From NCBI GenBank assembly GCA_026397505.1, contig JAPLUR010000113.1:1-45791 (forward strand): a DNA stretch of 45,791 nt, read 5' to 3'. Both the position numbers and the translations under genes were made by a program. This DNA is from Candidatus Zixiibacteriota bacterium. Lineage in GTDB: Bacteria > Zixibacteria > MSB-5A5 > GN15 > PGXB01. Positions 5,055 through 45,550 of the stretch are shown piece by piece (position 1 is the first letter of the stretch; the number at the start of each line of letters is the position of its first letter). The notes beneath the pieces are model-generated. The model was not told where the DNA came from, did not search any database, and saw only the letters and a program-made list of their open reading frames with translations.

Positions 5055-5828
5055 ATGATATCTCTTAAGAATAAGCTTGCTCTGGTAACCGGGGCTTCCT
5101 CCGGGATTGGTGAGGCGACTGCTCATCTATTTGCCCAACAGGGTGTCAGGCTTCTTTTGGTCGCCCGAAGGATGGATCGGCTGGAAAAGCTGGCCAAGAA
5201 CCTCAAGAAGAAATATGAAATCGAGACATTCTGTCTCCAAATGGATGTCCAGAACCAGAGGGAGGTGGAGGGAAGACTGGAGGCACTCCCGATTGGATGG
5301 AAAAAGGTCGATATTCTGGTCAATAACGCCGGCCTGAGCCGCGGCCTGGATAAGCTCCATGAGGGGAAATTGAGCGATTGGGAAGAGATGATCGACACCA
5401 ATATTAAGGGGCTTCTCTATGTCAGCCGGGTGGTGATCCCCTGGATGGTTAAAAGGGGCAAGGGGGATATTGTCAATATCGGGTCGATTGCAGGGCATGA
5501 GCTTTACCCCGGCGGGAATGTCTACTGCGCAACCAAGTTTGCCGTTGATGCCCTCACCAAGGGGATGCAGATTGATCTGGTCGATACCCCGCTCCGCGTC
5601 AGCGCGGTTGATCCCGGGATGGTGGAAACGGAGTTTTCGATGGTCCGATTCCACGGCGACAACGAACGGGCGGGGAAAGTCTATCAGGGGGTAGCGCCGC
5701 TAACCGGTGAGGATGTAGCCGAGGCGATCCTGTTCTGCGTGACCCGGCCGCCGCACGTGAATATCCATCAGGTGCGTATCATGCCGACCTGCCAGGCTGG
5801 GGCGATGGTTTTACACCGGAAGGGATAA
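5055..5828 (+). CDS. SDR-family NADP-dependent 3-hydroxy-acid dehydrogenase-like oxidoreductase (YdfG type)
   Basis: 257 residues with all classical short-chain dehydrogenase motifs: the cofactor loop TGASSGIG near residue 14, NNAG near residue 93, the active-site Ser in IGSIAG, and the YCATK catalytic Tyr/Lys pair. The C-terminal DPGMVETEFS and the closing VNIHQVRIMPTCQ stretch match the YdfG/serine-3-dehydrogenase-like subgroup, which oxidises small 3-hydroxy acids such as serine or 3-hydroxypropionate derivatives. That substrate is known for relatives and inferred here. The start at 5055 follows AAGGA and a strong promoter. It is monocistronic as far as can be seen. A second partial copy of its 3' end lies about 350 bases downstream. 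Confidence 0.9.
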   Translation: MISLKNKLALVTGASSGIGEATAHLFAQQGVRLLLVARRMDRLEKLAKNLKKKYEIETFCLQMDVQNQREVEGRLEALPIGWKKVDILVNNAGLSRGLDKLHEGKLSDWEEMIDTNIKGLLYVSRVVIPWMVKRGKGDIVNIGSIAGHELYPGGNVYCATKFAVDALTKGMQIDLVDTPLRVSAVDPGMVETEFSMVRFHGDNERAGKVYQGVAPLTGEDVAEAILFCVTRPPHVNIHQVRIMPTCQAGAMVLHRKG

Positions 5829-6101: not shown

Positions 6102-6176
6102 AGGCCACACCTGAATATCCATCAGGTTCGTATCATGCCGACATGCCGAGCAGGGGCGATGGTGCTGAACCAATAA
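6102..6176 (+). pseudogene. Duplicated 3' end of the SDR gene
   Basis: The frame reads RPHLNIHQVRIMPTCRAGAM, then VLNQ and a TAA at 6174-6176. It matches the SDR's own closing residues PHVNIHQVRIMPTCQAGAMV nearly residue for residue, and the DNA is also closely similar. Nothing of the upstream SDR body is present. This is either the leftover of a tandem SDR paralogue deleted by an insertion or a partial duplication. Confidence 0.8.
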
Positions 6177-10050: not shown

Positions 10051-10164
10051 TCCTATCTCCTGAATTAACAGTAACTAATCTAAGGCGGTAATTTAATCAA
10101 TTCCGCCGGAAAGGCAACGGGAAAAGCAGATTGCAGAATTTCACAAAAAAATCCTACAACGCGC
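10051..10164. other. Upstream region of glnA
   Basis: Nothing decisive is visible: no TGGCAC-N5-TTGC sigma-54 motif and no convincing minus-strand -35/-10 pair. The block shared with the second leader begins just after, at 10161. Confidence 0.4.
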
Positions 10165-10193
10165 TTGACAATTCGGGCGGATTTGCGTTATTT
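10165..10193 (+). promoter_or_regulatory. Promoter of the first dockerin paralogue
   Basis: TTGACA (10165-10170), 17 bases, TTATTT (10188-10193). The same arrangement, TTGACA-17-TTCTTT, precedes the second paralogue in inverted orientation, and the shared sequence begins here. Confidence 0.6.
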
Positions 10194-10609
10194 GAATCAA
10201 GAGCCAAATTCAGGTTTTTACATCGGGCTATGACATCGCGCTTCACAACAGGCAGTGGCTTTTTTAGTTAAATTTGGCGTTTGATACGCTGTTACATTTC
10301 TCTTGCTGTTTGGCGGCGATTAATTATGCGGTCTCGGGAATGATACTCTTAGAGATTGAAAATGTTGTTTTTCAGGGACTTTTAAGGCTGGATTGCGGGG
10401 GGAGGTGATCGGTTGGCGGAAGCATAACGGTTGCAAAGCCATTAGTTCGATGACAGCTTAACAACGCCCCGGCCGTTCATATAGTATGTTTGAGCCGGCC
10501 CGGGGAAAAGCGGGTTCATTTACCTAAATTTGTCCAGGAATTTTTATGGAATAGATTTAGGGAATAAGTTGGGAATTTTAAATAAAAATGCTTTGAAAGG
10601 AGTTCAGCA
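10194..10609 (+). promoter_or_regulatory. Long 5' leader conserved between two paralogues
   Basis: About 416 bases separate the promoter from the ATG. From about 10200 to 10478 the sequence is nearly the same as the reverse complement of 22640-22935: I count about 15 differences in some 280 bases. It contains a TGAAAA/TTTTCA hairpin, a GGGGGGAGGTGAT tract, the box GCAAAGCC (10433-10440; ACAAAGCC in the other copy) and a GC-rich hairpin (about 10466-10505). The last about 70 bases are AT-rich and absent from the other copy. AAGGAG lies eight bases before the ATG. Possible roles are cis-regulatory RNA or a remnant of recent gene conversion. Confidence 0.6.
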
Positions 10610-13600
10610 ATGACAAGGAAATTATCGGCGATTTTCATTATCTCCTTGTTAGCCGTTGCTTTTCTTGCCGCTTCTTCATTTGGTACGAGTGCGGGCGGCG
10701 GTAGTAATAAGGTGGTCAATAAGGTCCCCATCAATCGGCCCATGGGGAAATCTCAGATTATCGGCGCCGAGCAGCCGGTTGAAGAAACCTCCGGTAAAGC
10801 ACCGGCACCGGCAAGCCTTGGTTTTGATCAGGTGCTGGGATACGCTCCTGGTTACAGGATCGGTGTCACTACTTATGATTATCAGCATAATGGCCGTATG
10901 GGCCGCCAGGTTGACTGGCGCGGAAACAAGGTGGTTCATTTTGCCTGGACGAAGATGATCTCGGTCAAGCGGGGCGTGCGGTGGCGGACCGGCTATGAAG
11001 CCTATGACGCCGGCTTGGGGACGTTTGCCCAGGCGGGTGCTTCCGATTCCGGCGGTTGCGATATTCACTCCGTGAATCGCTATAATGGTTCCGGTTATGC
11101 AACTCTCGATGTTGATACCGAAGGTAAAGCGGTCATTGCCAACCACCACACCGAGACCGGTGATGCCGCCGATTATGCCACCACCATTTGGTATGATTAC
11201 GATCAGGGCGGCTGCTATTTTGCGCCTTACAGAAGTAAGGTTCCGGACAGCACGATGAACTACTTTGCCGATCAGCTACACGAGAAACGTTATCTCTGGC
11301 CCTCAATGGAATATCAGGTCTGGAACGGTGATACGGTCACCCATCTCTTCTCACAACAGCTCAAAAGCGATATGGAGCCGCAGTTCATTGTTTATTTCCG
11401 CAGACATGGCAGTGATACCGTTGGTCACTGGGAATATCCGCCGATGATGGTTGACACGGTCAACGCGGTTTCTCAGACGGTCAGCGCCTCACGGGTCAGC
11501 GGCAAGGTGGCTTTGTGCTGGTTGATGTGCTATCCCGACATTGTGGGCGATCCCGAGTCGAAGCAGCGCAACGGCGATCAGAGAGTCAATGATGTCTATT
11601 ACATGATGTCGACCGATATGGGCGACACCTGGGGGCCCAAGGTCAATGTCACCAAGTTTGACCCCTCCGATACCGGCTGGCTGGCTCATACCGACATGTC
11701 GGCTTTGATTGGCACAGATGACAAGCTGCACATCATTTGGAACGCGCGCGACGTGACGCCCTTTCCGGACGGACCGGATTTCAACCATTTTTATGGCAGC
11801 CGTCTGTTCCACTGGGACGAAGGCAGCAACCTCATTCGGACCATCAAGGATGCCAACTGGGTCCTTGCGGACGATGGTTGCTATGGCGGCGCCTGGAACG
11901 AAATGAGTATCACGAAGATGCAGATTTCGGAGTGCGCCGGCAAGTTCTACGCCCTCTTTGTGATGTATAACGATTATTTCAACGGTATCACCAACGACTG
12001 CCACTCTTCCAACTGGATAGGTCATCGGAACGGTTCGGCCAACGGCGAACTTTTCATTTCCGTTTCCGACAATGGCGGTTTGATCTGGGATATCGCCCGC
12101 AACCTGACCAATACGCGGACGCCTCATTGCGACACTGCCGGATCTGGCAACCCGGTTATCTGCGGCTCCAAAGTGTGGCCCTCGATGTCCCGTTTTGGTA
12201 TGGATCGTTCGGGCGGCGACTGGACCGGTATTCCGATTGTTGACCCCTCGGGAAGCTATACCGGGAATATGTACCTTGACGTATTCTACGTTCAGGACAA
12301 ATATCCCGGCGGCTGCGTGCAGGATGACGGCGTCTGGACTTATAACCAGATGAAGTGGTTCCGCGTGCCGTGCGTCGAGTGTGTTCCGAACCCGCAGCTG
12401 AGCTTGGACCCCAGCATTATTGTTGACCCGGCCTGGCCGAAACCGAGTGTCCAACTTGACTCAACCCTCAAGCTGGAAAACATTGGTAATGCCGTTCTGC
12501 ATATCTATGCGGTCAATATTGTTAAGACCACTCATACCGGTCTGGATTGGCTGGGTATCTCCGGTGTTCCGGGGTCGATTTCGCATCTGGTTCCGAACTT
12601 TGTCAATGCGACAGTCAATCTGAACAAGGGTGGTGCGATAACCACCGGTCCGGCGGTTGGCGTAGGATTCATCGAGTTTGTAACCGACGCTCCGACCTCG
12701 CCGGATACTCTGTTGATTCGTCTGATTGTTGCCGACACGGTTCAGTTCCCCGAGTGGGCCAGTATCAGAACGGCCTGCAACCGGATCGTTCTGAACAATG
12801 CCGGTAATCTCGGTAATATCGGCGAGGGTCTGAACGATGTTTATGGCTTCAACCTGAACTTCTTCAACGACTGCGACACGACCGGCAACACAGACGGTGC
12901 CAGTGACAATGCCCTGGTATATCTCTATGACGCGAGTCCGTTTATTCTTCGCGCCAAAGGCGCTCTCCCCGGCGACACCATTCTGAACTCCTACATTTTT
13001 GATGCCAACTGGTTGTACAACGATGGCTTCCGCCCCGGGAAAGGTCTCGTGGTCGATTCCACCAGCCATGAGGACTTTCAGTATGCCTACACCAACCAGT
13101 TCCTGACCAAGGACTCCGGGATTGGTGTTGAGTGCGAATACTGGATGCCTTTGCATTCGGATACCTGCGGATTCATTATCCAGAAGCTCAAGATCGTCAA
13201 TAAGAGCGCCGCGGCTATCAACAACCTTATGATCGGCGAGCTTATGGACTGGGATATTCCCTCCGACTCGGGTGTGGAAAACGGCTCTGATTATGATGCC
13301 ACGCGTCAGATGATGTGGTGCTATGGCGCCGAACTCGTCCCGGATAGTATCGCCAACAACGACTGTGTGCCGGCCAATAATCGCGCCGGCGGTTTCGCTT
13401 ACCTCAACGGTTACAAAGTGCCGACGACCGGTCCGACTGATAGGTTTGCCAACGTCACCGGCATGTATACCGGTTTGAACCCCGACTGGATATATCCGAC
13501 CGGTAACTTCGTGCCGCAGCAGTTGTATAACAAGCTGAATAATTTCAGCGGTTATCAGACCTGGTTATCGACTGAACCGACCATGGAGGATTCGTTGTAT

Positions 13601-14272
13601 CAGGATCTGAACATGGTTGCTTACTACGGCAAGAAGAACCTGGGCATGAATGATACGTTGGTCTTCATCAAGATTATCGCCACCGAGTATAACAATGGCG
13701 CTCTTGGTCTGAAGGACTGCATCGACAAAGCCAAGCAGTGGTGGAAGAATCGGTTCAAAAATGCCCCAATCGTGCTTGATCCGGGTGTAAGGTACGGCGC
13801 CACGGGTGTGCCGATGATCTTTATGGTCAGCGGTTTTGACCTTGACGGTGATGCCATTAGCATGACGGCAAGCGGCTTACCTGCCGGGCCACCCGCCGCG
13901 ATATTTGCCGATAATGGTAACGGCACCGGCACCTTCAACTGGACGCCTCCGGTGGTCGGAAATTACACATTTACCGTGACGGCCAACGACGGCAAGGCGA
14001 CCGGTTCGCGGGTGATTCAGGTTAATATCATTAGCACCTGCTGTGTGAAGCCCGGCGATGCCAACCACAATGGTATACTCAACATTGCTGATATTACTTA
14101 CCTCATCAAGTTCCTGTATCAGAGTGGTCCTAAGCCTCCTTGTCAGGGCGGCGTTGGCAAATATCCCGAAGGGGATGCCAATGGTAATGGGATAACCAAC
14201 ATTGCTGATATTACTTATCTCGTCAAGTTCCTGTATCAGAGCGGTCCTGCTCCGATTTGCGGACCAATGTGA
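10610..14272 (+). CDS. Large secreted Asp-box (sialidase-like propeller) protein with C-terminal dockerin
   Basis: 1220 residues. Signal peptide (about 1-29, ending in the AAS-SFG region). The region about 80-600 carries Asp-box motifs of sialidase-type propellers (STDMGDTW near 333, SVSDNGGLIWD near 485) and aromatic/Gly-rich repeats. About 605-720 has an Ig-like fold pattern (KLENIGNAVLHIYAV); 720-1050 is unassigned and Cys/Trp-containing. About 1053-1140 is a cadherin-like/putative Ig module (GFDLDGDAISMTASGLP, NWTPP). Residues about 1143-1220 form a dockerin with loops DANHNGILNIAD and DANGNGITNIAD. No catalytic residues can be assigned; it is probably a cell-surface or extracellular structural or binding protein. 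It has its own promoter, long leader and terminator. Its closest relative is the inverted copy at 18957-22592. Confidence 0.85.
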   Translation: MTRKLSAIFIISLLAVAFLAASSFGTSAGGGSNKVVNKVPINRPMGKSQIIGAEQPVEETSGKAPAPASLGFDQVLGYAPGYRIGVTTYDYQHNGRMGRQVDWRGNKVVHFAWTKMISVKRGVRWRTGYEAYDAGLGTFAQAGASDSGGCDIHSVNRYNGSGYATLDVDTEGKAVIANHHTETGDAADYATTIWYDYDQGGCYFAPYRSKVPDSTMNYFADQLHEKRYLWPSMEYQVWNGDTVTHLFSQQLKSDMEPQFIVYFRRHGSDTVGHWEYPPMMVDTVNAVSQTVSASRVSGKVALCWLMCYPDIVGDPESKQRNGDQRVNDVYYMMSTDMGDTWGPKVNVTKFDPSDTGWLAHTDMSALIGTDDKLHIIWNARDVTPFPDGPDFNHFYGSRLFHWDEGSNLIRTIKDANWVLADDGCYGGAWNEMSITKMQISECAGKFYALFVMYNDYFNGITNDCHSSNWIGHRNGSANGELFISVSDNGGLIWDIARNLTNTRTPHCDTAGSGNPVICGSKVWPSMSRFGMDRSGGDWTGIPIVDPSGSYTGNMYLDVFYVQDKYPGGCVQDDGVWTYNQMKWFRVPCVECVPNPQLSLDPSIIVDPAWPKPSVQLDSTLKLENIGNAVLHIYAVNIVKTTHTGLDWLGISGVPGSISHLVPNFVNATVNLNKGGAITTGPAVGVGFIEFVTDAPTSPDTLLIRLIVADTVQFPEWASIRTACNRIVLNNAGNLGNIGEGLNDVYGFNLNFFNDCDTTGNTDGASDNALVYLYDASPFILRAKGALPGDTILNSYIFDANWLYNDGFRPGKGLVVDSTSHEDFQYAYTNQFLTKDSGIGVECEYWMPLHSDTCGFIIQKLKIVNKSAAAINNLMIGELMDWDIPSDSGVENGSDYDATRQMMWCYGAELVPDSIANNDCVPANNRAGGFAYLNGYKVPTTGPTDRFANVTGMYTGLNPDWIYPTGNFVPQQLYNKLNNFSGYQTWLSTEPTMEDSLYQDLNMVAYYGKKNLGMNDTLVFIKIIATEYNNGALGLKDCIDKAKQWWKNRFKNAPIVLDPGVRYGATGVPMIFMVSGFDLDGDAISMTASGLPAGPPAAIFADNGNGTGTFNWTPPVVGNYTFTVTANDGKATGSRVIQVNIISTCCVKPGDANHNGILNIADITYLIKFLYQSGPKPPCQGGVGKYPEGDANGNGITNIADITYLVKFLYQSGPAPICGPM
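14081..14245 (+). repeat. Near-identical direct repeat inside the dockerin
   Basis: The two dockerin halves share almost the same DNA: AACATTGCTGATATTACTTA starts at 14081 and again at 14198, and both continue nearly unchanged for about 48 bases (CTC[A/G]TCAAGTTCCTGTATC...). This points to a recent duplication or conversion of one half onto the other. Confidence 0.8.
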
Positions 14273-14298
14273 TCCGGTAGTTTATGAGATCCAAAAAT

Positions 14299-14329
14299 TC
14301 AGGAAGCTATCCTCGTGATAGCTTCCTGA
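14299..14329 (+). terminator. Intrinsic terminator of the first dockerin paralogue
   Basis: Perfect 13-bp stem TCAGGAAGCTATC (14299-14311) with GATAGCTTCCTGA (14317-14329), 5-base loop, then GTTTTATT. The same hairpin ends the inverted paralogue. Confidence 0.9.
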
Positions 14330-14337
14330 GTTTTATT

Positions 14338-14586
14338 GGGATCAATTGAGATAATCGTACCAAATTGCGAATGGGGGCATTCGGGGTCGTAAAATTAACT
14401 CTTTAATAATCAATGGCTTAAGCTTACAATAATAAGACAACTCGTATGAATTTGCGAATTACCCCTTTCATTATAAAAGCAAACAATTGTAATCGCCAAT
14501 ATAAGTCATTATAAGAATTGAGATTGCAAAGAATACAAAAGCAGTCGGGTTTTCTCCGGCATTGCCGTTGCTACTTTATTGATACG
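14338..14586. other. AT-rich intergenic stretch without recognised gene
   Basis: No open frame with a ribosome-binding site and no repeat longer than a few bases was noticed. It lies just outside the left inverted arm. Confidence 0.4.
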
Positions 14587-18817: not shown

Positions 18818-18847
18818 CTTTGCCTCGGAGCTAACCCCTTAATAAAA

Positions 18848-18880
18848 TTCAGGAAGCTATCACGAGGATAGCTTCCCGAA
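18848..18880 (-). terminator. Intrinsic terminator of the second dockerin paralogue
   Basis: TTCAGGAAGCTATC (18848-18861) with GATAGCTTCCCGAA (18867-18880), 14 bp with one wobble. On the minus strand it is followed by a TTTTATT tail, the same as at the first copy. Confidence 0.85.
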
Positions 18881-18956
18881 TTTTCAAATCTCATAAACTA
18901 CCGGATCACATTAATCCGCAAATGGGAGCAGGACAGCCCTGAATTGTCCATCCGGC

Positions 18957-21900
18957 TCACTTGCTCATACATTTCTGTTCCCACTCCTGACAAGTAGGGC
19001 AGCTTAAGGGAAAGCCTGAGTATAGCACTTTAATCAACCCAGTGACATCTTGGATATTTAAGATACAATCGCAGTTCAGATCAGCTTCCGGATACTTGCC
19101 TGGAGCGACCTTACAAGGGATACAAAAAACACTCTTATATAGGAAATTGATAATGCAAGTAACATCCTGAATGTTGACTCTGCCATCATGGTTGGCATCG
19201 CCGCGTTTCACACAGCAGCTAGTGGTAACCACGACATAGATGGTCGCGAAACCGGAGTCTCTGCCGTCGTTGGCGGTCACCGTAAAGGAGAAATGACCAC
19301 TATCCGGAGGCGTCCAGTTGAAGAGGCCAGTACCATTACCATTGTCGGCAAAGATCGAGGTACCCGGCAAACCGGTTGCCGTCATTGTGATGACATCACC
19401 ATCAAGGTCAAAGCCGGTTACCGTGCCGATCATCAACTGGGCCTTATTGCCGTAAAAAGTCTTGGATTGGACTATCGGGGCATTGTTGAACCGATCTCTC
19501 CACCACTGTTCGGCTTTGTCGATGGTGGTCTTCAGACCAGCAGCGCCAGTGTTATACTCGGTGGCGAGAATCTTGATGAAGATCAGCGTATCATTCACGC
19601 CCAGGTTCTTCTTACCGTAGTAAGCCACCATATTCAGATCCTGATACAGCGAATCTTCCATCATCGGCCGAGTCGACTGCCAGGGCTGATAACCGCTGCA
19701 AGTATTCAGCTTGTTATACAACTGCTGCGGCACGAAGTTACCGGTCGAATAGACCCAGTCGGCATTCAAACCGGTATACATACAGGTGATGTTGGGGAAC
19801 CGGTCGGCGGAACTGCTTGCGGGCAGTTTATAACCGTTGAGGTAGGCGAAACCACCGGCGCGATTGTTCGCCGGCACACAGTCATTATTGGTAATGCTGT
19901 CCGGGCCATATTCGCCGCCATAGCACCACATCATCTGACGCGTGGCGTCATAATCCGAACCGTTTTCCACACCAGAGTCGGAGGGAATGTCCCAGTCCAT
20001 AAGTTCGCCAATCATCAGATTGCTGTAAGCCACGCCGCGCTTATTGACGATTTTGAGCCTCTGGATAAGGAATCCGCAGGTATCCGGATGCGGAGGCATC
20101 CAGTACTCGCACTCAATACCCATTCCGGAGTCGCTGGTCAGGAACTGGTTGGTATAGGCATACTGATAGTCCGCATGGCTGGTGGAATCAACCACCAGTG
20201 CTTGCCCCGGACGGAAGCCGTTCTTATTCAGCCAGTCGGCATCAAAAATGTAAGAGTTGAGAATGGTGTCGCCGGGATTGTTACCCTTAGCCCGCAGAAT
20301 GAAGGGACTTGCGTCATAGAGATATATCTTGGCGTTGTCATCCTGACTGTTGGTGTTGAGGGTGGTGTCGCAGTCGTTGAAGAAATCGAGGTCATATGCG
20401 CCCCCTCCCTGATTACCCTGACGACCAAGATTTCCCGCGTTGTTCAGCACAATCCGGTTGCATGCGGTTCTGATACTGGCCCACTCGGGGAACTGAACCG
20501 TATCGGCAACAATCAGACGAACAGGCAGAGTATCCGGAGAGGTCGGAGCGTCGGTTACAAACTCGATGAAACCTTCGCAAACCTTCGGACCGCTTGTTAT
20601 CGCGCCACCCTTGTTCAAGTTAACGGTCGCATTGACAAAGTTCGGAACCAGATGCGAAATCGTCCACGGAACACCGGTGATACCCAGCCAATCCTGGCCG
20701 GGATAAGTCGTTTTGACAATATTGACCGCAAAGATATGCAGAATAGCATTACCGATGTTCTCCAGACGAACTGTCGTGTCAAGCGGGGTTGACGGTTTCG
20801 TCCAGGCCGGATCACCGATCTCATTGGGGGTGCATTCCAGCCGCGGGTTCGGAACCGGCGCGACGCATGGCAGGCGGAACCATTTCACCGGATTATATGT
20901 CCAGACGCCGTCATCCTGCACGCAGGCGCCCGGATAACGGTCCTGAACATAGAGGACGTCAAGGTACCAGTTCCCGATATAGCTTCCCGAGGGGTCAACA
21001 ATCGGAATACCGGTCCAGTCGCCGCCGCTCTTATCCATACCAAAACGGGACATCGAGGGCCACATCTCGGAGCCGCAGATAACCGCGCCAATAGTGTCGC
21101 AATGAGGCGTATAGGTATTGGTCAGGTTACGGGCGATATCCCAGTTCAAACCGCCGTTGTCGGAAACGGACATATAAAGCTCGCCGTTAGCCGCCGCTTC
21201 ATCCATTTGGCGATAACAGTCGTTATCTATACCATGGGCAATATCATTGAACTGGACAAATAGAGCATAAAACTTCCCATCACATTCTGACAACTGCATC
21301 TTAACTATACTCATCCGGTTCCAGACATCGCCATAGCATCCCGAATCAGGAATATCCCAGTTGGCGTCTTTAATTGTGGTAATCACATTGTTTCCATTAT
21401 CCCAATGAAACAAGCGGCAGCCATGGAAATGGTTGAAAACCGGTCCGTCCAGGGAGGGCGTCGCCTCGCGCGCGTTCCAAATGATGTGAAGCTGATCATC
21501 GGTATCAATAAGAGCCGAAAGGTCAGTTTCCGCTAGCCACCCGCTCTCATCTGGAACATAATTGTATTTTGTGACATTGACGGTCGGCGTCCAGGTAGCC
21601 CCCATGTTGTCAGACATCATATAATATACATCCGAATATTGTGGATAGCGCCACGGTGAAGAATTGTCATCGGGTGGCTCCGCATAGCCTGCGGTCCAGA
21701 CTAAAGCCACCTTTCCACTGACTCTTGAGGCGGTTACTACCGCGGAAATGGAACTGACGGTATCGATGGCTTTAGGAGGATATTCCCAGTGACCTACAGT
21801 GTCACTGCCTACCCTTCTAAAGTAGGAAATCCGCATGTTACCGGAATATCCACTACCCAGATGTGGATCCAGATAGTGCCAATTATCCCATTGGGCCAAA

Positions 21901-22592
21901 ACATGGGTTACAGTGTCACCGTTCCAGACTTGATATTCCATCGAGGGCCACCGATACACATATTGCCCAGGATTTCCATAGTCGGTTGTGCTGTCCGGAA
22001 CCTTGCTCCGGTAAGGCACAAAATAGCAGAAGCCCGGTGCGTAGTCATACCAGACTGTAGGTTTAGAATCGCCAGCATATCCGGTCTCGGTGTGATCGAT
22101 GCAAAGAATTGCTTTACCTTCGGTATCCACATCAAGGCCCACATAACCGGAAATATTATTGGGGGCTCCGGCATGAACATCGCAACCGCCGCTATCGGCG
22201 GAACCCTCCTGGAGAAATATCCCCAAGCCGGCGTCATAGGCTTCATAGCCGGTTTGCCAAAGCTCGTCCATCACTGTCGTCGTCTGTTTGGTCCAGGCAA
22301 AATGAACCATCTGTGTGCCGCGCCAGTCAACCTGCCGCTGCATACTGCCATAGTGTTGGTTATCATGGATTGTCACGCCAATTTTATAACCTGGTGCAGG
22401 ACTTGGGTAATTAACATATCCCAAACTCTGCCCTGTGCCCCCCTTATCCGCGGTTCCCTTTGCGGCATTTTGGGCCGGTGCGGCAAAGGGGTCCTGCTTC
22501 TTTATTGGTTTCTGCATGCCATGGGTAATCGATACCAAAAAGGTGAGGAATAGAAGCAGAATAGCCGAGTTCACCAAAATTCTATTTGTCAT
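18957..22592 (-). CDS. Large secreted Asp-box protein with C-terminal dockerin (inverted paralogue)
   Basis: 1211 residues with the same layout as the gene at 10610-14272: signal peptide (about 1-25), Asp-box-bearing propeller-like region (MSDNMGATW, SVSDNGGLNWD), Ig-like segment (RLENIGNAILHIFAV), a Cys/Trp-containing middle, an Ig/cadherin-like module (GFDLDGDVITMTATGLPG) and a dockerin (about 1125-1211). The middle part is very similar to the paralogue (e.g. ISHLVPNFVNATVNLNKGGA in both), while the N-terminal part is more diverged. The dockerin differs (DANHDGRVNIQD and DLNCDCILNIQD). It ends EQKCMSK, with its TGA 16 codons ahead of a TGA corresponding to the paralogue's stop. GGAAGGGATG precedes the ATG. 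Likely extracellular; activity unknown. Confidence 0.85.
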   Translation of the reverse strand: MTNRILVNSAILLLFLTFLVSITHGMQKPIKKQDPFAAPAQNAAKGTADKGGTGQSLGYVNYPSPAPGYKIGVTIHDNQHYGSMQRQVDWRGTQMVHFAWTKQTTTVMDELWQTGYEAYDAGLGIFLQEGSADSGGCDVHAGAPNNISGYVGLDVDTEGKAILCIDHTETGYAGDSKPTVWYDYAPGFCYFVPYRSKVPDSTTDYGNPGQYVYRWPSMEYQVWNGDTVTHVLAQWDNWHYLDPHLGSGYSGNMRISYFRRVGSDTVGHWEYPPKAIDTVSSISAVVTASRVSGKVALVWTAGYAEPPDDNSSPWRYPQYSDVYYMMSDNMGATWTPTVNVTKYNYVPDESGWLAETDLSALIDTDDQLHIIWNAREATPSLDGPVFNHFHGCRLFHWDNGNNVITTIKDANWDIPDSGCYGDVWNRMSIVKMQLSECDGKFYALFVQFNDIAHGIDNDCYRQMDEAAANGELYMSVSDNGGLNWDIARNLTNTYTPHCDTIGAVICGSEMWPSMSRFGMDKSGGDWTGIPIVDPSGSYIGNWYLDVLYVQDRYPGACVQDDGVWTYNPVKWFRLPCVAPVPNPRLECTPNEIGDPAWTKPSTPLDTTVRLENIGNAILHIFAVNIVKTTYPGQDWLGITGVPWTISHLVPNFVNATVNLNKGGAITSGPKVCEGFIEFVTDAPTSPDTLPVRLIVADTVQFPEWASIRTACNRIVLNNAGNLGRQGNQGGGAYDLDFFNDCDTTLNTNSQDDNAKIYLYDASPFILRAKGNNPGDTILNSYIFDADWLNKNGFRPGQALVVDSTSHADYQYAYTNQFLTSDSGMGIECEYWMPPHPDTCGFLIQRLKIVNKRGVAYSNLMIGELMDWDIPSDSGVENGSDYDATRQMMWCYGGEYGPDSITNNDCVPANNRAGGFAYLNGYKLPASSSADRFPNITCMYTGLNADWVYSTGNFVPQQLYNKLNTCSGYQPWQSTRPMMEDSLYQDLNMVAYYGKKNLGVNDTLIFIKILATEYNTGAAGLKTTIDKAEQWWRDRFNNAPIVQSKTFYGNKAQLMIGTVTGFDLDGDVITMTATGLPGTSIFADNGNGTGLFNWTPPDSGHFSFTVTANDGRDSGFATIYVVVTTSCCVKRGDANHDGRVNIQDVTCIINFLYKSVFCIPCKVAPGKYPEADLNCDCILNIQDVTGLIKVLYSGFPLSCPTCQEWEQKCMSK

Positions 22593-22942
22593 TCTTTCAT
22601 CCCTTCCAATGCACGTTTACCTGCTTCTCCCCGGGCCCGGCTCAACTCATGCTGAATGAACGGCCGGGGCGTTGTTAAGCTGTCATTGAACTAATGGCTT
22701 TGTAACCCGAGTGCTTCCGCCAACTAATCACCTCCCCCCGCAATCCAGCCTTAAAAGTCCCTGAAAAACAACATTTTCAATCTCTAAGAGAATCATTCCC
22801 GAGACCGCATAATTAATCGCCGCCAAACAGTAAGAGATATGTAACAGCGTATCAAACGCCAAATTTAACTAAAAAAGCCACTGCCTGTTGTGAAGCGCGA
22901 TGTAATAGCCCGATGTAAAGACTTGAATCTGGCTCTTAATTC
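22593..22942 (-). promoter_or_regulatory. Long 5' leader of the second dockerin paralogue
   Basis: About 350 bases, nearly the same as the leader at 10194-10609 in inverted orientation, including the TGAAAA/TTTTTCA hairpin, the GGGGGGAGGTGATT tract and a stronger GC-rich hairpin (CCCCGGCC pairing with GGGCCCGGGG). It lacks the AT-rich last part of the first leader. The coordinates also explain the gene-free stretch to the right of the coding region. Confidence 0.6.
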
Positions 22943-22971
22943 AAAGAACGCACACCGCGCCGAATTGTCAA
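22943..22971 (-). promoter_or_regulatory. Promoter of the second dockerin paralogue
   Basis: On the minus strand TTGACA (22966-22971), 17 bases, TTCTTT (22943-22948). It is aligned with the promoter of the first paralogue. Confidence 0.55.
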
Positions 22972-23091
22972 GCGCATGCGCCACTTTATTTCTTATCAAA
23001 ATACCTGTTCGGCGCCGTTCTATCCCTAACCGCTTGATTTTCAGGCAAGTGCGGAGGAGCCGATTTTGGCTTCTTTATCGCATTTTTTCTC

Positions 23092-42522: not shown

Positions 42523-42574
42523 TTCAGAACAGAATTGAAAGAAATTGCACTTATAGGAAACTTTGAGAATATCG

Positions 42575-43021
42575 ATGGCTGGGATGTTTACAGAGTTGGC
42601 TCGCAAGGCGATTGAATACGCCCGCGATGAAGCCGCCCGGCTTCGTCATGACCATATCGGCACCGAGCATCTCCTGCTGGGGCTGATTCGCCTCGGGGAG
42701 GGGCGAGCAGTCGAGATCATCAACAATCTCGGCCTTGATTTAAAGGAGTTAAAGGACTCAATTGAGAAGTCTGCCCAGCCGGCGGGCGGCACGATGACCA
42801 TGGGCCAGCTGCCTTTGACCGCCCGGGCGAAAAATACGCTTCAGCTTTGCGACGAGGAAGCTCGCGCCCTGGAGTCGGAGGATTTAGACACCGAGCATCT
42901 CCTGCTGGCCATGCTCGCAGATGAAAAAACATCAGCGTCCCGAGTGATGTCAAAATATAAAATCACGTATTGGGATGTTTTGGATGAGCTTGAGAATATT
43001 CGGAATAAGGAGATTTCTTAA
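42575..43021 (+). CDS. Free-standing Clp N-domain protein
   Basis: 148 residues consisting only of the two Clp_N repeats: first repeat [20 protein letters not shown] with [11 protein letters not shown], second repeat around ALESEDLDTEHLLLAML. The AAA+ modules are absent. The acidic residues of both GTEH/DTEH sites, which in Bacillus ClpC bind phosphoarginine, are retained. Its first about 150 bases (42583-42732) differ from clpC at one position only, while other parts diverge. The ATG at 42575 is preferred; a TTG at 42563 is too close to the AGGAAA site. It could present arginine-phosphorylated substrates, compete with ClpC, or be a degenerating duplicate; none of this is shown. Confidence 0.85.
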   Translation: MAGMFTELARKAIEYARDEAARLRHDHIGTEHLLLGLIRLGEGRAVEIINNLGLDLKELKDSIEKSAQPAGGTMTMGQLPLTARAKNTLQLCDEEARALESEDLDTEHLLLAMLADEKTSASRVMSKYKITYWDVLDELENIRNKEIS

Positions 43022-43158
43022 TTATAAAAGAAATCGTAATGAATCAAACCAAAGTTGAAAATAATTGTTTATATAGGATGGTGAAATAAGATGAACGAGA
43101 TGTTTACAGAGTTGGCTCGCAAGGCGATTGAATACGCCCGCGATGAAGCCGCCCGGCT
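42583..43158 (+). repeat. Tandem duplication of the Clp N-domain 5' end
   Basis: The segment starting GATGTTTACAGAGTTGGCTC at 42583 recurs at 43099 with one mismatch over about 150 bases (CAT to TAT, His to Tyr). A second near-identical block of about 60 bases around 42776 and 43292 has three mismatches. Between these blocks similarity is much lower, giving a mosaic pattern. Confidence 0.85.
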
Positions 43159-45550
43159 TCGTCATGACTATATCGGCACCGAGCATCTCCTGCTGGGGCT
43201 GATTCGCCTCGGGGAGGGGCGAGCAGTCGAGATCATCAACAATCTCGGTCTCGAAATACAGGACCTGAAAGCCTCGGTGGAGGAGGTTGTTCAGCCGGCC
43301 GGCGGCACGATGACCATGGGCCAGCTGCCTCTGACCGCTCGGGCGAAAAAGACGCTCGAGGTCTCCGGACAGGAGGCGCGTGCCCTGAAGTCCAAGGACA
43401 TCGATACCGAGCATATCCTTCTGGCCCTGCTCAAGGATGAAGAGGGAGTGGCGGCGCAGGTACTGTCGATGTACGAAATCGACTATAAAGAAGTTTACGA
43501 AGAACTCAAGAATATTCAGAGCGGGAAACCCTCTTCATTTAAGAGGAAACGGAAAAAATCAAAAACCCCGGCGCTGGATCATTTCGGACGCGACCTGACC
43601 GAACTGGCCCGCCGCGGGCGTCTTGACCCGATTATCGGCCGGGAGGATGAAATCGAACGAGTCAGCCAGATACTTTCCCGCCGGAAAAAGAACAACCCGG
43701 TCCTTATCGGCGAACCGGGCGTCGGCAAGACCGCCATTGCCGAAGGATTGGCGCAGCGCATTGTCGAGGGGAAAATACCCCAGACGCTGGAAAACAAGCG
43801 GCTGGTCACTCTCGATATGGCCTCGCTGGTGGCCGGTACCAAGTACCGCGGCCAGTTCGAGGAACGCCTCAAAGCGGTCATGCAGGAGATTATTAATTCC
43901 AAGGATGTTATCATTTTCATCGATGAACTGCACACCATCGTCGGCGCCGGCGGCGCCGAGGGTTCGCTCGATGCCAGCAATATTTTCAAACCGGCTCTGT
44001 CGCGCGGCGAATTGCAGTGTATCGGCGCCACCACGCTGAACGAGTACCGCAAGTACATAGAGAAAGACGGCGCCCTGGACCGTCGTTTCCAGACGGTCAT
44101 GGTCGAGGCTCCCTCGACCGAGAATACCGTCCAGATTCTCAAAGGTTTGCGCCATAAGTACGAAGAACATCACAAGCTGGTAATCTCCGATGAGGCGATT
44201 GAAGCGTCGGTGAAACTCTCCAACCGATATATCACCGGCAAATTCCAGCCCGATAAGGCGCTTGATGTTGTCGATGAGGCAGGCAGCCGGGCGCACCTGG
44301 CCACGTTCGCCAAACCGCGGGAATTCAGCGATATCGAGAACGAAATTACCCGCCTTCAGGAGGAAAAGGAAAAGGCGGTCAAGAACCAGGCTTTCGAACG
44401 GGCCGCTCAGCTCCGCGATGAACTGAAATTCAAAAAGGAGAAGCTGGCCGAGATGAAGAAAGACTGGAATGACCAGCGCGATAAACAGCGCACGGTGCTT
44501 CGCGAGGAGGATATTGCGGCGGTCGTTTCCAAAATGACCGGTATTCCGCTGTTCCGTCTCGAGGAAAAGGAATCGCGCCGCCTGCTCCGCATGGAGGAGG
44601 AACTCAGGAAACGGATTATCGGGCAGGATGACGCGATCCTGTCCATCACCCGCGCCATCCGCCGCGCCCGCGCCGGACTGGGCGACCCGCGCCGTCCCAT
44701 CGGCTCGTTCATCTTCCTGGGACCGACCGGTGTCGGCAAAACCGAACTGGCCCGCGCTCTGGCGGGGTTCCTGTTCGAAGATTCCGACTCCCTCATCCGT
44801 ATCGATATGTCGGAGTACATGGAGAAATTTGCCGTGTCGCGCTTGATCGGCGCGCCTCCGGGATATGTCGGATATGAAGAGGGCGGCCAATTGACCGAGA
44901 AAGTACGGCGTCGCCCGTACTCGGTAGTGCTGCTCGATGAAATCGAGAAGGCTCATCCGGATGTATTCAATATCCTGCTGCAATTGATGGATGACGGCTC
45001 GCTCACCGATTCTTTCGGTCGCCGGGTCGATTTCCGCAACACGGTCGTGATTATGACCTCCAATATCGGCACCCGCCGCATCAAAGACGGCAAAACCATG
45101 GGGTTCGGCGCCGAGAAGGAGGATGCCTCGTACGATTCGATGAAAAAGAAAGTCACCGAGGAACTGCGCAAGATGTTCAACCCGGAACTCCTGAACCGCA
45201 TCGACGAGACGGTAGTATTCCATTCGCTCGACATCGACCATATCAAGCTGATTGTCGATATTCTGGTGGCCGATGTGGCCAAACGTCTGGCCGAAAAAGG
45301 TATCAGTTTCGTGTTGACCGACCCGGCGCGCGAATTTTTGGCCCACAATGGGTATGATCCGATGCTGGGTGCTCGTCCGCTTAAACGGGCGATACAGAAG
45401 TACCTTGAGGATCCTCTGGCCGAGGAGCTTCTGCGCGGTCAGTTCGCCGGCGACTGCAACCTGAATATCGGCGCCAATGCAGAGAAACTGCTCTTCACTT
45501 TCAACGACCGGCCGGCCGTGGACAAAAAGCAGGAGCCGGTCGCCAAGTAG
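43091..45550 (+). CDS. clpC: ATP-dependent Clp protease ATP-binding subunit ClpC
   Basis: 819 residues. N-domain (about 1-150) with two Clp_N repeats, D1 AAA+ module with Walker A GEPGVGKT (207-214) and VIIFIDELH, a UVR-like middle helix hairpin (about 415-455; [20 protein letters not shown]), and D2 with Walker A GPTGVGKT (544-551) and [25 protein letters not shown] loop near 670 lies where ClpP-binding GF loops occur, so it should unfold proteins for ClpP, which is not in the window. AGGATGGTG precedes the ATG. Last gene of the array; a strong terminator follows. Confidence 0.97.

Follow-up and report, generated by a model that had tools for sequence, protein, structure and literature searches.

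A long 5′ leader conserved across an order of Zixibacteria precedes one family of secreted proteins

A long 5′ leader that is absent from Rfam is conserved across a whole bacterial order of the Zixibacteria lineage. It belongs with one secreted-protein family, and all genuine matches that were checked precede that family. The leader is described here from a window of 45,791 nucleotides of a Candidatus Zixiibacteriota genome (contig JAPLUR010000113.1, positions 1–45,791, forward strand), which carries two paralogous genes termed A and B (Table 1). A preliminary description of this DNA had suggested a cis-acting RNA shared by dockerin genes; homologous genes do share a cis-acting leader, which is order-wide and, between species, slower to change than silent sites. 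The 280 nt that had been flagged upstream of gene A are not the conserved part, as they have neither relatives nor a folding signal. The conserved element in A is a Shine-Dalgarno (SD)-like box together with a block at 10513–10609, and this 3′ leader block is, by its fit to a covariance model, a true member of the leader family. The leader most likely acts post-transcriptionally, through ribosome docking or mRNA stability, in a manner that would resemble the STAB-SD of Bacillus thuringiensis.

Layout and distribution of the leader family

Homologues of the A protein are found in 86 of 98 relatives. Its orthologues, which come from Zixibacteria-lineage MAGs in two families of one order, have a 5′ leader of approximately 330–450 nt with a common layout. 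From 5′ to 3′ this consists of a TTGACA promoter, which most orthologous leaders have between −320 and −470, a 5′ half of 150–300 nt, the SD-like box GAAGGGAGGTG, a variable hairpin, and then hairpin P3. Directly abutting P3 is AATAAGTTGGGAAC, which is followed by the gene's own SD GAAAGGAG and, from the ATG, by a signal peptide that is also conserved (MTRKLSAI..SLLIVAFLA).

When 84,980 species across GTDB were scanned with the pattern TAAGTTGGGAAC..GAAAGGAG..ATG, 22 contigs matched. Twenty-one are from the Zixibacteria lineage (several are labelled Zixiibacteriota and others are mislabelled Calditrichota or Ignavibacterium), and one is from Butyrivibrio, a chance match before an unrelated gene. 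The single match among viral contigs also lies before an unrelated ORF. A contig scan with the protein as query gave no match, whereas the leader DNA pattern did. Within the order, a shorter pattern is present in 27 of 80 genomes with zero matches for the reversed-pattern control; at the phylum level the counts were unchanged and the control matched once. All 30 of the 30 loci fetched from the order scan precede this secreted-protein family. Covariance model R1 matched 39 genomes of the order, with up to six copies per genome, and those of the extra strong matches that were checked precede the same family. The Rfam scan that had been proposed matched no family to the leader at the gathering threshold, and relaxed thresholds gave chance matches only. 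In a text search of the literature, no paper was found to combine Zixibacteria with either riboswitches or dockerins.

A second covariance model, R2, was trained on six other genomes with this genome excluded. It matches this genome in two places only, on contig C75 (E 1e-13) and at the 3′ module of A (E 3e-11 genome-wide, 4e-13 in the window). The initial suggestion that the leader is shared by dockerin genes at large was rejected, in that there are about 118 matches to the query protein in the 3.4-Mb genome, nearly all to the dockerin-like C-terminal region, as against two places for the 3′ block and three for the exact box.

Table 1. Features of genes A and B and of their leaders (window coordinates)
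Feature	Position	Strand	Basis or remark
5′ half of leader A	10160–10517	+	92% identity (flanks included) to 22975–22619; common to B only
−35 box TTGACA of gene A	10165–10170	+	identical in A and B; present in most orthologous leaders
Non-initiating SD-like box GGGGGGAGGTGAT	10397–10409	+	exact pattern three times in genome, each before a family paralogue
GC-rich hairpin	10467–10505	+	A and B: stem nearly identical, loop different
3′ module (hairpin P3, AATAAGTTGGGAA, SD, start codon)	10513–10612	+	covariance model R2, 66 bits
Hairpin P3 (CCTAAATTTGTCC ... GGAATAGATTTAGG)	10523–10561	+	alignment-free swap test
Invariant core AATAAGTTGGGAA	10563–10575	+	near-invariant in 43 leaders
Shine-Dalgarno of gene A, GAAAGGAG	10595–10602	+	invariant in family
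Gene A	10610–14272	+	ORF, Pfam, predicted fold; 1220 aa secreted protein
3′ UTR and terminator hairpin GGAAGCTATCCTCGTGATAGCTTCC	14270–14340	+	common to A, B (18840–18908) and third paralogue (L053, 13170–13250)
Gene B	18957–22592	−	ORF of 1211 aa, paralogous to A
Promoter and leader of gene B	22619–22975	−	same 5′ half as A; 3′ module absent, no R2 match
SD-like box of B, GGGAGGTGATTAGTTGG	22720–22736	−	pattern search of genome

Genes A and B and their paralogues

Pfam and the predicted fold give the A protein a sialidase-like propeller, an Ig-like domain and a dockerin-like C-terminus, and the predicted fold also holds further beta domains. Its best PDB matches are sialidases, with low TM-scores. 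The C-terminal repeats of A and B resemble Dockerin_1, with both proteins below the threshold of that Pfam model. The genome, which is assembled in 147 contigs, has a third paralogue on contig C75 that is 80% identical to A in amino acid sequence. The signal peptide of the C75 protein is nearly the same as that of A; that of B is unrelated.

Other copies are also present. One further paralogue (G000:C12:4534–7361) has two internal TAG stops and is a decaying gene copy. A fourth paralogue, L047 (G000:C108), has a short leader of approximately 130 nt with its own TTGACA; its box AACCTCACTTGCC resembles that of the order-wide 5′ half, and this is possibly a shrunken leader. Elsewhere in the window are a 60-nt direct repeat (5750–5809 and 6104–6163, 88% identical) and a 300-nt tandem repeat (42574–42873 and 43090–43389, 87% identical). 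The latter is found at the 5′ ends of the ORFs at 42563–43021 and 43091–45550, a partly duplicated gene.

The chimeric leader of gene A

The preliminary description counted about 15 differences in some 280 nt between the two leaders, and the count is sound: there are 16 substitutions in 281 nt (10197–10477). It also stated correctly that the N-terminal halves of the proteins differ much more. Over codons 0–100, A and B are identical in 36% of amino acids and 50% of nucleotides, and over the first 300 codons in 54% of amino acids, 64% of nucleotides and 57% of fourfold sites; the N-terminal coding halves are about 65% identical. The window-by-window comparison thus shows that the likeness is not uniform through the N-terminal coding region.

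The purine tract GGGGGGAGGTGAT and the GCAAAGCC/ACAAAGCC box noted in the leader are both present. The proposal that the leader starts at a matched promoter stands for the TTGACA, but the −10 is weak (tentatively placed at about 10189–10194) and a consensus promoter scan did not report a promoter for gene A. Several hairpins had been noted as well, but the A and B leaders have no more than expected by chance (z −0.5 for A and +0.9 for B relative to dinucleotide shuffles), and the 5′ halves of both give a folding z of about 0.

Matches to the whole leader at the DNA level were confined to this genome in a search that included 60 relatives, because the flagged half is lineage-specific. The search of related genomes that had been recommended therefore came out empty for the flagged half, whereas the 3′ module proved to be order-wide. 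Leader A also had no match in a plasmid collection. Since the flagged half has no homologues, constraint on it cannot be assessed, and its function could be nil. Neither A nor B matched an order-wide profile of the 5′ half that was trained without this genome, whereas the C75 leader matches this profile along its whole length (E 7e-32). The 5′ half of A is thus a lineage-specific replacement, one that kept the SD-like box near its usual place.

The likeness between A and B stops abruptly at 10517–10521, and from there on A is 89% like the third paralogue. There are two full copies of the leader in this genome, and a third match, that of C75, covers 10521–10620 only (89%). As A is B-like up to 10517 and C75-like from 10521, gene A is a chimera. 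Its promoter and 5′ leader are of the B type; its 3′ leader is of the third-paralogue type, as are its signal peptide and coding region. The mosaic structure proves that an exchange took place. The near-identity of A and B is best explained by a transfer of promoter and 5′ half between paralogues, to which constraint is added.

Constraint between species

In six close interspecies ortholog pairs, the leader is more alike than the fourfold-degenerate sites of the gene. Leader and fourfold-site identities are, respectively,.84 and.69 for L063/L107,.98 and.77 for L064/L066,.91 and.62 for L109/L113,.92 and.73 for L113/L122,.97 and.89 for L090/L113, and.84 and.57 for L073/L129. With Jukes-Cantor distances, leader change is roughly 0.07–0.45 of the silent rate. 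The alignment baseline obtained with shuffled leaders is.63, and more diverged pairs say less; leader identity in L071/L096 and L065/L097 is near this baseline. It should be pointed out that the upstream flank is as alike as the leader in two of the pairs. The comparison shows that the leader type evolves more slowly than fourfold-degenerate sites between species, i.e. that purifying selection is general in the type. The strength of this constraint would by itself allow the likeness of A and B.

The observations on A and B can also be read as plain recent gene conversion or duplication of a leader that has no function beyond promoter and SD. The sharp edge of the mosaic at 10517–10521 fits this explanation, as do the 3′ UTR common to A, B and C75, and a flagged 5′ half that lacks both folding signal and relatives. 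However, conversion within one genome can explain neither the slow evolution of the leader between species nor a 3′ module conserved order-wide, and the leader-to-silent-site ratio of A and B, about 0.11, is inside the interspecies range. Conversion alone is therefore unlikely to be the whole explanation; the identity of A and B is the product of a leader swap in addition to purifying selection on the leader type.

RNA secondary structure

Across 30 leaders, the segment from the SD-like box to AAGTTGGG has a more favourable fold than its dinucleotide shuffles (mean z −2.46, s.e. 0.23), and the 5′ half of orthologous leaders folds hardly better than shuffles (mean z −0.87, 33 leaders). The arms of P3 pair better with those of their own leader than with the arms of other leaders (z −2.9 to −6.3; controls 0 to −2.0). 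Column-wise analysis within two subfamilies (alignments A1 and A2) gave no covariation above shuffles, because the arms vary too little within subfamilies. Covariation, for which a test had been recommended, is thus seen when arms are swapped without an alignment, but not in the columns of the subfamily alignments. Structure in the 3′ part of the leader is likely on these grounds.

Possible functions of the leader

The SD-like box is found at −111 to −211 in 40 leaders, approximately 150 nt before the start codon. The GG, GG and T are fixed in all 40 leaders, and GGAGGTG is invariant or nearly so. The box is complementary to the canonical 3′ end of 16S rRNA, a canonical tail being assumed for this genome. 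Exact GGGAGGTGATNNNNTGG occurs before A, B and C75. Thermodynamic folding predicts the box to be mostly paired, with 28% unpaired compared with 38% for the whole leader. Sequestration of the box by an upstream ACCTC was considered and rejected as a general property; it is seen in some alignments of family f1 and is plausible in part of f1.

The leader is proposed to act after transcription. A 30S subunit would dock on the SD-like box, a match to the usual 16S rRNA 3′ end, and/or the hairpins between box and SD would shield the message. Docking or shielding may then set the ribosome loading and mRNA life-time of a presumably abundant exported protein. The reading favoured, with moderate confidence, is that docked 30S would influence stability or loading. 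The entire account, i.e. a constrained order-wide leader, a chimeric gene A, and docking and/or shielding, is put forward tentatively, at slightly below an even chance.

The closest known parallel is the STAB-SD of B. thuringiensis cry3A. It binds 30S without initiating translation and blocks RNase J1, and the stable transcript has its 5′ end at −129 (PMC4113751). In both cases a non-initiating, SD-like sequence able to pair with 16S rRNA lies over 100 nt ahead of the start codon (PMC4113751), and cry3A encodes a very abundant protein, as the Zixibacteria gene presumably does. In contrast to STAB-SD, the Zixibacteria box is flanked by order-wide conserved hairpins and a core. A further difference is that RNase J, the exonuclease blocked in cry3A, was not found here: TIGR00649 matched nothing in this genome, the completeness of which is 100, and the control was positive in 13 of 14 genomes. 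RNase E/G is present. A more far-reaching proposal is somewhat doubtful: that this is a new long-5′-leader RNA family, in which an exported protein's mRNA would be stabilised and loaded by 30S parked on an extended non-initiating SD about 150 nt upstream, in bacteria that lack RNase J.

A second parallel is offered by the ribosome standby sites of structured 5′ UTRs (PMC3936740), which provide a platform for ribosome binding well upstream of the true SD, ahead of the hairpins. The Zixibacteria leader differs in that its sequence is conserved across the order and in that folding does not support accessibility of the box.

The same box might be a target of CsrA, which would bind ANGGA there and in the gene SD and either repress or stabilise the message. 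This genome has a CsrA gene (83 bits, E 4e-23), ANGGA is present in 34 of 40 SD-like boxes and also in the gene SD, and CsrA can shield the 5′ ends of mRNAs from RNase E (PMC7652899). CsrA-bound leaders such as that of Escherichia coli glgC also have GGA motifs, one of which overlaps the SD (PMC7652899). However, GGA is in every SD anyway, and, the two SD motifs apart, ANGGA shows no excess (3.35 observed compared with 2.15 expected). The conserved positions extend far beyond GGA, and the box in L063 and L107 contains GGGGGG. CsrA sites typically lie in hairpin loops, and a hexaloop position was not evident for those of the leader. CsrA binding is putative, and control by CsrA is unlikely.

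A structured 5′ leader confined to one gene family also calls to mind the cis-regulatory leaders and riboswitches of Rfam. Were the leader a riboswitch, a thermosensor or an attenuator, its 3′ module would alternate between P3 and a pairing of the same 5′ arm with GAATAAGT on a change of ligand or temperature. In f1 (the L063–L107 leaders) the arm AUUUGUUC can indeed pair with either of the successive GGAAUGAGUUU or GAAUAAGU, and the invariant AATAAGTTGGGAAC adjoins the SD. Against a switch are the lack of an Rfam match at either threshold, the strong variation of the hairpin sequences, and an association with one gene family only, without a metabolic theme; such a role appears improbable.

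A leader peptide, encoded by a short regulatory ORF that would be initiated from the SD-like box, is barely credible and largely refuted. The box is a good SD, and short TTG ORFs follow it in A and B. It is nevertheless unlike the start of a leader peptide, given that 30 of 40 boxes have no start codon 3–12 nt downstream; the ORFs are not alike in length or sequence, those of A and B included, and no conserved short ORF follows the upstream SD in 40 leaders. Short leader ORFs shared by A and B were rejected as candidates, as they have no SD support or conservation elsewhere.

Significance

The case of A and B shows that leaders of this type pass between paralogues as modules. Should the box park ribosomes, as the docking proposal has it, the STAB-SD idea would extend to a lineage where no RNase J was found. 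An order-wide leader that evolves more slowly than silent sites suggests that an abundant exported protein is under tight post-transcriptional control in these uncultured bacteria.
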